DNA of 64,000 nucleotides, taken from positions 2,666,001 to 2,730,000 of the forward strand of contig NZ_JACCBV010000001.1 in the NCBI RefSeq assembly GCF_013409785.1, read 5' to 3'. Of the stretch, positions 8,372-13,666 are shown in pieces. This DNA is from Microbacterium immunditiarum (GTDB lineage: Bacteria > Actinomycetota > Actinomycetes > Actinomycetales > Microbacteriaceae). Position 1 is the first letter of the stretch, and each line of letters starts with the position of its first letter. The translations under genes and the position numbers were made by a program. Under the pieces are notes generated by a model. That model did no database searches. It was not told the DNA's origin and saw only the letters and a program-made list of their open reading frames with translations.

Positions 8372-8593
8372 ATGAGCACATCGACACCGACTGAGGCCGC
8401 TGCCGTCCTCGAGTACCGTCTCAGCGCGATGGACCGCTGCGACTCCTGCGGCGCCCAGGCGTACATCGCCGCCGAGGTCAACGGCAGCGAACTGCTGTTC
8501 TGCGCGCACCACGGCCGCAAGTACGAAGAGAAGCTTCGCGCCGTCGCCACGACGTGGCACGACGAGACCGCCCGGCTCAACGAAACGGTCTGA
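8372..8593 (+). CDS. Small DUF7455-type zinc-binding-like protein
   Basis: A 73-residue protein beginning MSTSTPTEAA, with a strong GGAGG ribosome site at 8361-8365. The core MDRCDSCGAQAY followed by LLFCAHHGRKY supplies CxxC and CxHH groups that look like a zinc site. Proteins of this kind are conserved next to parE in actinobacteria and now carry a DUF7455 label. The function is unknown. Its stop codon is one base from the stop of the racemase-like gene transcribed towards it. Confidence 0.82.
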   Translation: MSTSTPTEAAAVLEYRLSAMDRCDSCGAQAYIAAEVNGSELLFCAHHGRKYEEKLRAVATTWHDETARLNETV

Positions 8594-8594
8594 C

Positions 8595-9629
8595 TCAGCT
8601 CCCCCGGTACTCGCGCGGAACGCGCGGCGACATCCGCAGCGCGACCTCTTCGCCGATCGTCCCGATGAGTTCGGCGAGGTCAGTCGCGCTCGCGGCGGCT
8701 TCCCGCCCGAACACCTGCACGAGCTGACCGGGCGCGGCATCCGGCCACGACTCGACCGATGAACGACGCCCGCCGATCCGCGTCACCCGACGCGCGCCGG
8801 CGGGTGTCTCGACGTCGAAGCGACCGGCGAGCGTCGACGGCAGTCCGTCGAGCGAGCCCACGCCGATGACCACGGAGTCCCCATCCACGGCGACGACGGG
8901 CGCCCGCAGCGTCGCGATCGGACGGATGCCGAGCTCGGCATCGCTCGGCCCGCCGGCGGGACGGATGCCATAGCAGAATGCCCCGATGCGGCACAGGTCG
9001 TAGCGGAACTCTCCGCGCGCGAAGGATGCCGCGCTCGCCGCCAGGTGCCTGAGGGTCGGACGCAGCCCGGCTTCCTCGGCCTCTCGCACGGCGAGGTCGA
9101 ACGCGGCGCGCGCGGCGTCGTCGTCGGCATCGGATGCCTCGGCGATGTGGCTCCACACGCCCACGACCTCGATCGCGCCGACGCGCTCCAGCTGCGCGGC
9201 ACGCTCCACGAACGCGGGCCACTCCTCGGGCCGCACGCCGTTGCGATGCAGCCCCGAGTCGACCTTGAGGTGCACGCGAGTCCTCCCGCCGACGGCGGCG
9301 ATCTCCTCGAGGAGCGCGGCGTCGCCGACCCCGAGATCGAGGTCCAGCTCCGCGACGCTGCGCAGCTCGTCCTCACCGAACGCGAGCCACACGAAGATGC
9401 GCGGCTCGTCGCCGAGCGCCTCCCGAACGGCCCGGCCCGTCGGCACGTCGAAGGCGCCGAACCACCGGACCCCCTCCTCCCACGCGCGCGTGACGACGGG
9501 CGGGATGCCGTGGGCGTACGCGTCGTCCTTCACGACGAGCATGACGTCGGCCGGCGCGACGCGTGAGCGCGCCGCCGCGACGTTGGCCGCGAAGGCGTCG
9601 AGATCCACCGTCAGGGTCGCCTCGCTCAC
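8595..9629 (-). CDS. Alanine-racemase-like protein, barrel-bearing partner (PLP lysine present, C-terminal Tyr missing)
   Basis: A 344-residue fold-type III PLP protein starting at GTG 9629 (VSEATLTVDL). The PLP lysine is K34 in VVKDDAYAHG, matching the alanine racemase VKANAYGHG. The barrel motifs HLKVDSGLHRNG and WSHIAEA are well kept. The C-terminal beta domain is short and altered: the normal VSYG segment, whose Tyr is the second catalytic acid/base, is absent (the region reads VDGDSVVIGVGS). The GTG overlaps the stop of the upstream homologue by 4 nt, so the two are translationally coupled. It may be one half of a heteromeric racemase; substrate unknown. Confidence 0.75.
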   Translation of the reverse strand: MSEATLTVDLDAFAANVAAARSRVAPADVMLVVKDDAYAHGIPPVVTRAWEEGVRWFGAFDVPTGRAVREALGDEPRIFVWLAFGEDELRSVAELDLDLGVGDAALLEEIAAVGGRTRVHLKVDSGLHRNGVRPEEWPAFVERAAQLERVGAIEVVGVWSHIAEASDADDDAARAAFDLAVREAEEAGLRPTLRHLAASAASFARGEFRYDLCRIGAFCYGIRPAGGPSDAELGIRPIATLRAPVVAVDGDSVVIGVGSLDGLPSTLAGRFDVETPAGARRVTRIGGRRSSVESWPDAAPGQLVQVFGREAAASATDLAELIGTIGEEVALRMSPRVPREYRGS

Positions 9630-10348
9630 TCGTGGTCCCTCCGCACACGCGCCCCGACCATGGCGACGAGCTCCGCGGCGGTCATGCCGGTCGAGCGCAC
9701 CCACTCCTGCAGCGAGGGCTCGCCGCTGGCGGGGTCGCCGAAGAAGACCACCGGGTCACCGCGCCGGATCTCCGCCTCCTGGACGTCGACGACGCACACG
9801 TCCATCGCGACGCGACCGATGATCGGATGCAGCGCGCCCCCGACCCGCACGTTCGCCCGCTCTCCGAGCGCGCGAACGACCCCCTGTGCGTACCCGCCCG
9901 TCACCAGCGCGACGCGCGTGTCGTGCGCGGCGCGGTGGATGTAGCCGTAGGAGACTCCCTCCCCCGCCCGCAGGGGCTTGATCCCGAGGACCGTGCCGCT
10001 CAGCCGCATGACGGGAGCGCAGACGCCGTCCAGGCCGTACAGCGCGGCCGTGGCGAGCGTCGGCTCGCCGTCCGTCATCACGCGCAGGCGGCCGGCCGCC
10101 GCATCCGTCACCGCGTCGGCGAGGTCGGCGTCGGCGATCACGGCGTCGACGCCCGCATCGGCGAGGGTGCGCGCACACGCCGCCGCGCCGTGGCCGAGAG
10201 CGTCGTAACGGAGGTCGGCGATGCGATCGCCGGAAGGGACGGATGCCACGCCCGCCCGCGCGTTCGCCGCGAGAGCCGCGTGCGAGATCCGTGCCCGGGG
10301 CGCGCTGCCCGTCCGCGTCGAGGGATGCTCAGGATCGGCCGCGGTCAC
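9626..10348 (-). CDS. Truncated alanine-racemase homologue, C-terminal-domain partner (PLP lysine replaced)
   Basis: A 240-residue protein, GTG start at 10348. Its N-terminus resembles the first barrel strands, but the PLP position is arginine (R47 in DLRYDALGHG), and about 140 residues of central barrel are missing. The C-terminal domain is the well conserved part: GEGVSYG with Tyr134, then DTRVALVTGGYAQGV and GRVAMDVCVVDV, as in true alanine racemases. It therefore has the Tyr-bearing half that the next gene lacks, and lacks the lysine that the next gene has. In alanine racemase dimers each active site uses Lys from one chain and Tyr from the other, so a heterodimer is a natural reading. 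Confidence 0.72.
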   Translation of the reverse strand: MTAADPEHPSTRTGSAPRARISHAALAANARAGVASVPSGDRIADLRYDALGHGAAACARTLADAGVDAVIADADLADAVTDAAAGRLRVMTDGEPTLATAALYGLDGVCAPVMRLSGTVLGIKPLRAGEGVSYGYIHRAAHDTRVALVTGGYAQGVVRALGERANVRVGGALHPIIGRVAMDVCVVDVQEAEIRRGDPVVFFGDPASGEPSLQEWVRSTGMTAAELVAMVGARVRRDHE

Positions 10349-10392: not shown

Positions 10393-11415
10393 ATGCCTCG
10401 CAAGGGCCTCAGCCTCGCGCCTCGCCTTCGCTACCTCGCCGGACGCGCCCGCCGCATCGACGTCGGATCGGTGCTCGAGCGGGCCAAGGAGGTGTCGCAG
10501 ACGCACGGCAAGTGGACCCCCGCCGTCGTCGTCGACATGCTGTGGTCCGCTGGATTCCGCCAGGTCGGGTTCCAGGACTACGTGGACTACGACTTCGCGA
10601 TCCTCAGCAAGGCCGAGCGCGCGACCTACATGACCCACCCGGTGTCGAACGAGCTGTCGCAGAAGTACGACCACCCCGACTACCGCCACATCTTCCAGGA
10701 CAAGGTCGAGTTCGACCGGGTCTTCAGCGACCACCTCGAGCGCGAGTGGATGGTCGTCGACGCGGGAAACGCGGATGCGGTCCGGGAGTTCACGCAGCGC
10801 CAGGGCACGATCGTGACGAAAGAGCCCGTGGGCCAGGCCGGCACGGGCGTGCACCGCTACCGCGCGGCCGAGATCGAGGACTGGGACGCGTTCCACCGCG
10901 GCCTGCTGGAGCGCGGAGAGCTGCTCATCGAAGAGGTGATCCGGCAGCATCCGGATATCGCCGCCGTCTGCCCCGGCACCGTCAACACAACGCGCGTCAC
11001 GGCCTTCTTCGACGGCCAGAAGACGCACATCCTCGCGATGGCGCAGAAGTTCGGGCGCGGCGCGGTGAGCGACCAGATGACGTTCGGCGGCTTCTACACG
11101 ATGCTCGACGATGCCGGACACGCAGTGGGCCCCGGCTACGACTCGCACGGCCACGTGCACGAGAGCCATCCCGACACGGGGTTCCGCATCGCGGACTTCC
11201 AGCTGCCGATGGTCGACGAGGTGAAGGCGTTCGTCGACCGGGTCGCGCGCGTCGTACCCCAGGTGCAGTACGTCGGGTGGGACATCGTCGTGACGCCCGA
11301 CGGTCCCGTGCTCGTCGAGGGCAACTGGGGCGCGGGGGTGTACGAGAACAAGCCGAGCGTCACCGGCATCCGCACCGGTCACAAGCCCCGATATCGCGAG
11401 GCGATCGGGTTCTGA
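10393..11415 (+). CDS. Sugar-transfer-associated ATP-grasp ligase-like protein
   Basis: A 340-residue protein matching the ATP-grasp family named for its association with sugar-transfer genes. Features seen are TIVTKEPVGQAGTGV (ATP-binding lysine and glycine-rich loop), ELLIEEVIRQHP (adenine-binding strand), NTTRVTAFFDG, and GPVLVEGNWGAGV with the Glu and Asn metal ligands near the C-terminus. ATP-grasp enzymes of this group form amide or ester bonds through acyl-phosphates; substrates are not known. It diverges from the paired racemase-like genes and converges on a CofE-like ligase, so a joint role in adding an amino acid to an envelope polymer or metabolite is a reasonable but unproven inference. 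Confidence 0.8.
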   Translation: MPRKGLSLAPRLRYLAGRARRIDVGSVLERAKEVSQTHGKWTPAVVVDMLWSAGFRQVGFQDYVDYDFAILSKAERATYMTHPVSNELSQKYDHPDYRHIFQDKVEFDRVFSDHLEREWMVVDAGNADAVREFTQRQGTIVTKEPVGQAGTGVHRYRAAEIEDWDAFHRGLLERGELLIEEVIRQHPDIAAVCPGTVNTTRVTAFFDGQKTHILAMAQKFGRGAVSDQMTFGGFYTMLDDAGHAVGPGYDSHGHVHESHPDTGFRIADFQLPMVDEVKAFVDRVARVVPQVQYVGWDIVVTPDGPVLVEGNWGAGVYENKPSVTGIRTGHKPRYREAIGF

Positions 11416-11477: not shown

Positions 11478-12176
11478 TCAGGTGGCGCGGACGATGCCGA
11501 GCGGCGTCGACTGGTGCCCCTGACCGAGCGGGTTGTCCTTCAGGATCCTGAGGAGCCGCTTCTCGCCGGTCTTGTCGAGCGTCGATCCGAGGATGTTGCC
11601 GCCGAGGTCGTTGATGTCGACGACGGCGACTTCGGATGCGCCGCCGAGCAGCTGCTTGAGGTGCGCGGCGACCTCGCGCGGGCGCTCCGGCCCGAGCACG
11701 ACGGCCTTGTTGTACGGCGGGATCGTGCCGCTCGTGGGGCCGTCGATCGCCCTGGCCTTGTCACCCGCGATGCGGTAGAAGTCGCCCTTGCGTCCGAACG
11801 CCTTCGTGACGGCGGCGACCGCCGCCGCGAGCAGGATGCGCGGCGTACCGCACTCGCGCAGCGCCATCTCCATCGTCTCGGGCATGCCCAGGCCGATGCC
11901 GTACGGCGTGCGCGTGACGTACTTCGACAGGAAGTACGCGAGCTTGCGCGGCTTGATCTCTTCGACCAGGTACGAGCGGCCCTGTGTGATCGCGACGATC
12001 TTCTCCGTCACGAACAGGATGTCGCCCGGGCGCACCTCGGACTCGGCGTACTCGCGCACGAACGCGTCGAGATCGTCTCCGGGCATCACCACACGCGTCC
12101 GGATGGGGATGCGCGCGTAGCTCGAGCCGTCGACGGCGACGATGAGCGCCTTGCCGGCGTTCGCCTCGCCGCTCAC
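11478..12176 (-). CDS. CofE-like amide ligase (F420-0:L-glutamate ligase homologue)
   Basis: A 232-residue protein starting at GTG 12176 ([10 protein letters not shown]). The segment [18 protein letters not shown] matches the conserved N-terminal motif of CofE, and [15 protein letters not shown] corresponds to its nucleotide/metal-binding strand. True CofE adds glutamate to F420-0. No other F420 gene lies in the window, and this branch is divergent, so I would not assume F420. The GTG overlaps the sigA stop by 4 nt (GTGA), which means translation is coupled to the primary sigma factor. It converges on the ATP-grasp gene. It could be a glutamyl or other aminoacyl ligase for the same unknown product. 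Confidence 0.7.
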
Positions 12177-13666
12177 TCGAGGTAGTCCCGCAGCGACTGC
12201 GAACGCGACGGGTGCCGCAGCTTGGCCATCGTCTTCGACTCGATCTGGCGGATGCGCTCACGCGTCACGCCGAACGTGTCGCCGATCTGGTCGAGCGTCT
12301 TCGGCTGGCCGTCGCCGAGACCGAAGCGCATGCGGATCACGCCCGCCTCGCGCTCGCTCAGCGAGTCGAGGAGCGACTCGAGCTGGCGCTGCAGCATCGT
12401 GAATCCGACCGCATCGGCGGGGACGACCGCCTCGGTGTCTTCGATCAGGTCGCCGAACTCGCTGTCGCCGTCCTCGCCGAGAGGCGTGTGAAGCGAGATC
12501 GGCTCACGGCCGTACTTCTGCACCTCGATGACCTTCTCGGGGGTCATGTCGAGCTCACGGCTGAGCTCCTCGGGCGTGGGCTCACGACCGAGGTCCTGGA
12601 GCATCTGGCGCTGCACGCGCGCGAGCTTGTTGATGACCTCGACCATGTGGACGGGGATGCGGATCGTGCGGGCCTGGTCGGCCATGGCACGGGTGATCGC
12701 CTGGCGGATCCACCACGTCGCGTACGTCGAGAACTTGAAGCCCTTCGTGTAGTCGAACTTCTCGACCGCACGGATTAGGCCCAGGTTGCCCTCCTGGATG
12801 AGGTCCAGGAACTGCATGCCGCGACCCGTGTAGCGCTTCGCGAGCGAAACGACCAGACGCAGGTTCGCACCCAGCAGGTGGGACTTCGCACGCTGACCGT
12901 CGCGGGCGACCCACTGCAGGTCGAGGCCCAGCTGGCTGGACTTCTCTTCCGGGGTCATCTTCGACAGCTTCTCTTCGGCGAAGAGGCCCGCCTCGATGCG
13001 CATCGCGAGCTCGACCTCTTCGGCCGCGTTCAGCAGCGGGACCTTGCCGATCTGCTTCAGGTAGTCCTTGACGGGGTCGGCGGTCGCTCCGGTGATCTGC
13101 GTCGAGTAGACGGGGATGTCGTCCTCGTCGGTCGACGAGATGACGATCGCGCCGGTGGGAAGCGGCTCCTGGAACGGTGCGGGCTTCTCCTCCTCGTCGT
13201 CGTCATCGTCGGAGGCCTCGGATGCCTCGGTCTCGGGCTCGCCGGCCTTGGCGCGGCGGCGCGTGGTCTTGGCCGCGGGCGCCTGTTCGGCCGCATCCGT
13301 CTCGTCGGCCTCGGCGTCTTCGGCATCGGCCTCGTCGACATCGGCATCGACCACGGCCTCGACGTCGTCCAGTTCGACATCGTCGAGCTCGACGTCTTCG
13401 ATCTCGTCGACCTCTTCGTCGGCAGCGGCCTTGCCCTTGGGCGCGGCCTTCTTGGGAGACGCCTTCGCGGTGGACTTCTTGGCCGCGGTCTTGGTGGAAG
13501 CGGACTTCGCGGGTGCCTTGGCGGCGGTCGTCTTGCCCGCGGTGGTCTTCTTGGCGCCGGCCGTCTTCGAGCCCGGCTTCGTCGTCGTGCCCTTCTTCTC
13601 TTCGTCGGCGGCCGTCTCGGCGCTCTTCGCGCGCGAGCGAGCGGTCGTGTTGGTGGCTGCGGTCAC
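12173..13666 (-). CDS. sigA: Primary RNA polymerase sigma factor (RpoD/SigA/HrdB group)
   Basis: A 497-residue group 1 sigma factor. The first ~180 residues are a lysine/alanine-rich then strongly acidic low-complexity extension, typical of actinobacterial SigA. Conserved region 1.2 starts at [16 protein letters not shown]. Region 2 contains [15 protein letters not shown] and [16 protein letters not shown] (promoter melting and -10 recognition). Region 4.2 has [19 protein letters not shown] (-35 recognition helix). The start [10 protein letters not shown] follows a 250-bp intergenic stretch that probably holds its promoter; I could not define one with correct spacing. The 3' end overlaps the CofE-like gene. 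Confidence 0.93.

Follow-up and report, generated by a model that had tools for sequence, protein, structure and literature searches.

Two overlapping genes of Microbacterium immunditiarum, here called A and B, are likely, judged from their sequences and those of their relatives, to encode an obligate heterodimeric PLP-dependent racemase with a single active site, which would have originated from a tandem of alr genes and may act on a diamino acid, ornithine above all, for type-B2 peptidoglycan. The parts of this reading differ in strength. That A and B dimerise and are active as a racemase with one composite active site is highly probable; a diamino-acid substrate and a role in type-B2 peptidoglycan come close to an even call and fall slightly short of it. 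By their domains, A and B are members of the alanine-racemase superfamily (fold type III PLP enzymes), with only a remnant left in the N-terminal part of A.

Two incomplete racemase chains and an altered specificity gate

The pair lies on the reverse strand of the window, the 64,000-nucleotide stretch of DNA that was analysed, and comprises the following features:

8595..9629, minus strand: gene B (344 aa), with a complete (beta/alpha)8 barrel that carries the PLP lysine, followed by a C-terminal domain from which the VSYG tyrosine segment is missing
8649..8651, minus strand: Glu327 codon of B, the alanine-specificity gate, equivalent to Tyr354 of Geobacillus stearothermophilus (G. stearothermophilus) Alr and Tyr364 of M. 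tuberculosis Alr
9528..9530, minus strand: Lys34 codon of B, the PLP lysine
9626..9629, minus strand: GTGA, four bases shared by the stop of A and the start of B
9626..10348, minus strand: gene A (240 aa), an early-barrel remnant and a complete alanine-racemase C-terminal domain, proposed donor of the catalytic tyrosine
9947..9949, minus strand: Tyr134 codon of A, the tyrosine of VSYG (Tyr265' in the Alr of G. stearothermophilus)
10208..10210, minus strand: Arg47 codon of A, where Alr has its PLP lysine (Lys39 in G. stearothermophilus)

The original prediction had described A as carrying Arg47 at the PLP-lysine position, keeping the VSYG tyrosine Tyr134 and missing most of the barrel, which is confirmed by its translation and domain matches, and B as keeping the barrel and Lys34 with loss of the VSYG segment, which is borne out by a full Ala_racemase_N match and by alignment; the GTGA overlap that it had noted is likewise present. 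In domain profile searches, A matched Ala_racemase_C with an E-value of 5e-32 and Ala_racemase_N over the first 66 of 220 positions only, a match (E 0.022) too weak for the curated cut-off of that profile. B matched all 220 positions of Ala_racemase_N (E 1.9e-49), and its match to Ala_racemase_C begins only at position 36 (E 6.9e-6). Both proteins miss the cut-off of 168 bits for the alr equivalog TIGR00492 (A 102.5, B 130.5).

Of the 8000 candidates scored in a protein search, 979 were homologues of A; among the 120 matches listed, lengths are about 204-269 aa and the named ones are nearly all from Microbacterium. For the pair alignment, 76 adjacent A/B pairs were taken from the family, the genus and the titled loci (three are the window itself, and there are 71 distinct rows). 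The VSYG tyrosine is kept in A in 76 of 76 pairs, and the PLP-lysine column of A never contains lysine: it is Arg in 52, Ala in 7, Asp in 4, Glu in 4, Pro in 3, Ser in 2, Met, Asn and Thr in one each and a gap in one. B has lysine at the PLP column and gaps at the VSYG columns in every one of the 76. Thus in no pair does either chain unite the PLP lysine with the catalytic tyrosine, as an alanine racemase does. A start codon (ATG, GTG or TTG) overlaps the stop of A by four bases in 72 of the 76 pairs, as in the window, and A and B are therefore probably translationally coupled. M. schleiferi was considered as a counter-example, since the VSYG pattern appeared to be missing from its A and to be found in its B; the alignment gives VSYN in A, with the tyrosine kept, and gaps at the VSYG tyrosine column in B, like other B proteins.

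The helix-10 tyrosine of Alr (Tyr354 in G. stearothermophilus, Tyr364 in M. tuberculosis) narrows the site to alanine, and in the lysine racemase Lyr and the broad-specificity racemase Bar, which share the Alr fold and whose specificity is defined by helix-10 residues, it is replaced by Thr391 and Ala393, respectively (PMC3485190). B has neither the tyrosine of an alanine racemase nor the Thr or Ala of Lyr and Bar, which unlike the proposed A/B enzyme are homodimers. Instead, the position is Glu in 57 of the 76 pairs, Asp in 16 and a gap in three. It is also acidic in all 16 second copies (T2; Glu 9, Asp 7) of the tandem complete alr pairs considered below and in all nine B halves of fused A-B proteins (Glu 8, Asp 1), while the first tandem copies (T1) have Tyr (14) or Trp (2). 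Tyrosine occupies the position in 22 of 22 alr genes of the family and 34 of 34 from Microbacterium (overlapping sets). Among five outgroup racemases, four have Tyr and one (P0145) has Asp, so the acid is not unique to B and T2, and three more distant Alr-like genes have His. A third Alr-like group, with (V/I)GYG in place of VSYG and His at the Tyr354 position, was seen in Okibacterium, Salinibacterium and Curtobacterium (L208, L209, L211). The conserved acid at the gate suggests, from this one position, a fit to a cationic side chain (Orn, Lys or Dab), and the change from Tyr354 to Glu or Asp provides a molecular reason for the diamino-acid substrate guessed at in the original prediction.

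The fold, and the PLP-binding core residues kept in B, would equally suit a heterodimer that is simply a second alanine racemase, split into two chains and of the old specificity. We consider this rather unlikely, because the gate is Glu or Asp in B and T2 whereas it is Tyr in the alr genes of the family, and because a complete alr is already available. The original prediction had asked whether the genome has a separate alr: the M. immunditiarum genome (3.9 Mb, one contig) contains five PF01168 matches, the best of which is a separate complete alr (G000:C1:3564969-3566036), and a complete alr is also found in the pair-bearing relatives inspected (G106, G137, G055, G006 and G028).

Distribution of the active-site residues between the two chains

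The premise of the original prediction, that each site of an Alr dimer combines the lysine of one chain with the tyrosine of the other, agrees with published descriptions of a site in which the barrel of one subunit meets the C-domain of its partner (PMC3485190; PMC3245724). A and B resemble Alr (PF01168 and PF00842, TIGR00492) in this arrangement as well as in fold, PLP-lysine motif and VSYG tyrosine motif. They differ in that Alr is a homodimer with two equal sites, whereas A/B, as proposed, would have one site on unequal chains and a dead second one, and in that Tyr354 of Alr is Glu or Asp in B.

A residue-by-residue test was carried out on 74 pairs (the 76 minus two window repeats), using the active-site residues of M. 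tuberculosis Alr marked by subunit in PMC3485190, with 1xfc numbering transferred via the alignment. Of the residues contributed by the other subunit, A has Tyr271' in 74 pairs, Tyr290' as Tyr in 69 and Phe in 5, Arg296' in 74 and Arg316' in 73 (Ala in one); the same positions are matched in B in 0, 6, 1 and 0 pairs, respectively. Of the same-subunit residues, B has Lys42, Tyr46 and Arg140 in 74 pairs each, His172 and Arg228 in 73 each and Ala176 in 71. In A, Lys42, Arg140 and His172 are found in none, Tyr46 in 24 and Arg228 in one, and at the remaining same-subunit positions A is mostly without any barrel residue. Across the 74 pairs, the other-subunit residues therefore reside on A and the core same-subunit residues on B, with few exceptions. 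Four positions further from the core, in the outer and partly the middle layer of the list (Asp177, Lys178, Ala241, Asp357), are unconserved in B and provide no test of the split-site idea because they are unconserved in the organism's own Alr too. A heterodimer in which one site works and the other is dead would be expected to show this residue pattern.

In the proposed enzyme, B would supply the barrel, in which Lys34 would bind PLP, together with Tyr38, Arg129, His161, Arg214 and the gate residue Glu327. A would supply the C-terminal domain, which in an ordinary homodimer extends across from the neighbouring protomer, with Tyr134 (Tyr265'), Tyr153 (equivalent to Tyr290' in the Alr of M. tuberculosis) and the conserved arginines. 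The opposite site, composed of the A barrel and the B C-terminal domain, would be dead. The acid in place of Tyr354 would favour a cationic side chain in the substrate, with ornithine the likeliest candidate and lysine or diaminobutyrate used in other genera, and the D-amino acid produced would enter the interpeptide bridge of type-B2 peptidoglycan. Two points count against this scheme: about 85 residues of A before the C-domain have no role in the proposed site, and the T2 copies are complete, so that a partner-free form can exist.

Alternatively, A could be a catalytically dead, prozyme-like regulator that activates or stabilises B, with B performing PLP chemistry without the tyrosine, for example a one-base reaction. 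Dead paralogs that activate their partners are known from trypanosome AdoMetDC (PMC5201418) and DHS (PMC3663545), which are similar in being paralog heteromers with catalysis lost in one chain. In the AdoMetDC case, however, the enzyme is activated by its dead partner, whereas A and B are both incomplete, reciprocally, and have a different fold. Moreover, A has kept four other-subunit active-site residues (in 74, 69 + 5, 74 and 73 of 74 pairs) and lost the rest, and regulation alone needs neither; we judge this explanation improbable.

Co-inheritance, fusion and origin of the pair

The original prediction raised the question of whether the pair is always inherited together. Among 80 titled, flanked loci from a ParE scan, A and B were counted at a 60-bit threshold in the 73 that include both sigA and parE: 28 have both A and B (including the fusion L116), 45 have neither and none has one alone, which upholds constant co-inheritance. 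The seven titled loci left out have sigA or parE missing from the stretch, and one of these, L072, has a B piece at its edge. Of 198 Microbacterium genomes, 166 clearly contain B (split by a gap in E-values), and A is directly upstream in all 30 B loci fetched, the window included. The 29 B-less genomes that are at least 90% complete also lack A and contain full-length Alr-type genes only, with a second, weaker Alr-like gene in each of G161, G196 and G337; the three incomplete genomes among the 32 without B contain an A-like piece (G299), broken pieces (G239) or neither (G194). Across 119 genomes of the order, a B profile scored 398-491 bits with six Microbacterium B genes, 397 and 364 bits with two other genomes of the family, 355 bits with the best genome outside it and 332 bits with the organism's own complete Alr. 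By this score, there is no sign of B outside the Microbacteriaceae in these 119 genomes.

At locus L116, A and B form a single 716-aa protein. A search with this protein found ten more fusions of 684-745 aa, including those of Parafrigoribacterium mesophilum and Terrimesophilobacter MAGs, and one shorter fusion of 601 aa (P0131); a further match, P0135, is apparently frameshifted and was dropped. In the nine fusions placed in the tree, the lysine position of the A half is Ser in eight and Gly in one, with SYG kept, and the B half keeps the lysine and has lost SYG. When the B rows alone were aligned with the fusions, their conserved columns fell on the fusion B half. These natural A-B fusions give indirect support for the association of A with B. 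Several stages of erosion are found in A, from a whole barrel lacking the lysine in L030 and most fusions, through the truncated barrel of the window and most pairs, to L145, in which little beyond the C-domain was matched (the start of this A is uncertain).

Two adjacent complete copies, T1 and T2, each with both lysine and tyrosine kept, are present in Curtobacterium, Frigoribacterium, Frondihabitans, Herbiconiux and Subtercola. T2 resembles B in clade and in its Glu/Asp gate. The tandems differ from the pair in having both catalytic residues in both copies and, in the eight loci taken with flanks, in the absence of the sigA-parE setting, their neighbours being common among themselves. In a tree of the barrel (62 rows, 228 columns), the 22 B and 13 T2 sequences all fall into one clade (support 100/97) made up of two starred sub-clades, each containing both B and T2. 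A topology that keeps B as one clade on its own fails the AU test (p 9e-5). It is thus probable that the second gene shed its tyrosine segment on two or more occasions, unless recombination restored complete T2 copies. The C-domain tree (130 columns) speaks against such restoration, as it places T2 in its own clade, apart from T1 (support 96/86). In the same tree a single origin of A has an AU p of 0.41, so that one and several origins are both compatible, and the C-domain of A sits among alr and T1. The proposed sequence of events would thus be duplication of alr, a tandem of two complete copies and then reciprocal loss, at least twice.

The original prediction had named genomes in which each gene stands alone with all catalytic residues restored as an observation that would speak against it. 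This is borne out in part, in that adjacent complete copies exist in related genomes; according to the trees, however, they are likely to represent the ancestral state rather than a refutation. The complementation idea itself holds as far as sequence reaches, given the reciprocal losses, the co-inheritance, the fusions, the separate alr and the probable repeated origin.

From the position of its C-domain among alr and T1, A might be thought to partner the housekeeping Alr in hybrid dimers instead of B, but A and B are adjacent, co-inherited and in some genera fused, and alr occurs where A is missing, making this very improbable. Although each gene lacks one catalytic residue, the chance that A and B are decaying pseudogenes is negligible in view of the number of A homologues (979), the open frames across many genera and the invariance of the tyrosine in A and the lysine in B over the pairs examined; family-wide conservation likewise rules out sequencing error, chance or pseudogene decay as the source of the losses.

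Cell-wall chemistry and the sigA-parE locus

Depending on the species, Microbacterium walls contain D-Orn, L-Lys or Dab. D-Orn is given for the M. testaceum and M. gubbeenense clades (M. enclense and M. gubbeenense excepted) and L-Lys for the M. imperiale clade (M. radiodurans excepted), while D-Orn fits the M. liquefaciens clade (PMC10757982). The A/B pair is present in M. testaceum, M. maritypicum and M. indicum, from clades given as D-Orn, and also in M. resistens, M. murale, M. jejuense, M. kyungheense, M. yannicii, M. aoyamense and M. luticocti, as well as in M. schleiferi, where it is at another site. The exceptions M. gubbeenense, M. enclense and M. radiodurans are outside the named loci and proteins compared. 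The M. lacticum clade is an L-Lys group. Four of the 29 near-complete genomes without the pair have Alr proteins that match at 99.5-100% those of M. lacticum, M. flavum, M. laevaniformans and M. dextranolyticum, all of which belong to this clade (PMC10757982).

In our analysis, Frigoribacterium, Frondihabitans and Curtobacterium have the tandem and Parafrigoribacterium has the fusion. The wall of Curtobacterium contains D-Orn. Peptidoglycan of type B2beta is given with D-Lys for Frigoribacterium, Lys for Parafrigoribacterium and Orn for Frondihabitans, Cryobacterium is given as DAB, B2gamma, and Salinibacterium as Lys or Orn (PMC7033078, Table 3). There is no pair or tandem in eight Cryobacterium genomes (one alr in seven, two apart in one), in Agromyces (a single alr in 7 of 7) or in two Salinibacterium genomes (one alr in one, two apart in the other), and hence it cannot be the rule that every B2 wall needs this pair. 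Also counting against the cell-wall link, L-ornithine has been reported in a Microbacterium wall (PMC10978784). The link is correlative and carries a phylogenetic component; the species compared are non-independent. Among the matches listed in literature searches, whose coverage excludes most subscription journals, we found neither an enzyme making the D-ornithine, D-lysine or D-diaminobutyrate of type-B2 peptidoglycan, nor a heterodimeric alanine racemase, nor MurT or GatD together with Microbacteriaceae.

The neighbours of the pair in the window include:

8372-8593: DUF7455 gene, which accompanies parE in nearly all of the titled loci
10393-11415: ATPgrasp_ST (PF14397) gene, a neighbour of the CofE-like gene
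11478-12176 and 12173-13666: the window part of the observation that either MurT(-GatD) or a CofE-like (F420_ligase) gene adjoins sigA

We compared the window with 20 pair loci from other genera, picked from the A matches. The pair is located between sigA and parE in the window and in 19 of the 20; the other, L180, shows parE only. In 15 of these 20 loci, MurT-like and GatD-like genes adjoin sigA, sharing the strand of A/B in seven, and a CofE-like gene occupies this place in the window and in four of the remaining five. In L204 (M. schleiferi FXH-192) and L205 (Microbacterium), the pair lies outside the sigA-parE region; in L204, one ATPgrasp_ST ORF match overlaps the start of the A ORF region. 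In the 73 titled loci, the sigA neighbour is MurT only in 44 (L104 being a MurT locus without visible GatD) and CofE-like only in 29, with both or neither in none. MurT_C has no match in the window's genome, which contains a stronger CofE match elsewhere, separate from the locus copy. From this distribution, the CofE-like protein seems to be a substitute for MurT-GatD.

We considered whether the pair works together with its ATPgrasp_ST and CofE-like neighbours; such a link is weakened by the presence of both at the same place in pair-less genomes; 10 of the 29 CofE loci are without the pair. ATPgrasp_ST genes are also seen where the pair is absent, and there are two ATP-grasp ORF matches in L077, L087, L106 and L177. 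Two records titled Stenotrophomonas maltophilia P13 (L075) and Planococcus sp. APC 4015 (L123) contain Microbacterium-like DNA, with ParE at 85-88% to that of the window, and are probably mislabelled or contaminated assemblies.

The 58 GatD-like proteins among 110 loci (L066-L145 and L176-L205; L117 is a weak match) never have Cys at the Cys94 column, which is occupied by A, G, T, S or other residues. In S. aureus GatD, Cys94 is the glutaminase cysteine and the C94A variant is inactive (PMC5871853). The Cys-less MurT-GatD may therefore join an amino acid, rather than ammonia, to D-Glu in this family with type-B peptidoglycan. A cell-wall role for the locus is plausible; the tie of the pair to the locus is positional only. 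As a speculative extension, towards which we lean on the side of doubt, a D-diamino-acid racemase would feed the sigA-parE wall locus, where a Cys-less MurT-GatD or a CofE-like ligase would add the bridge amino acid at the D-Glu alpha-carboxyl, providing the missing type-B biosynthesis, with a heterodimer that had arisen at least twice from tandem alr genes.

If the proposed heterodimer is correct, it would represent a clean natural case of the conversion of a shared-site homodimer into an obligate one-site heterodimer by reciprocal loss, at least twice, with the intermediates extant in one family: complete tandems, a full-length dead barrel, fusions, a truncated barrel and an A consisting of nearly the C-domain only. 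It would also identify a gene for the D-ornithine, D-lysine or D-diaminobutyrate of type-B2 peptidoglycan, a genus-defining character.
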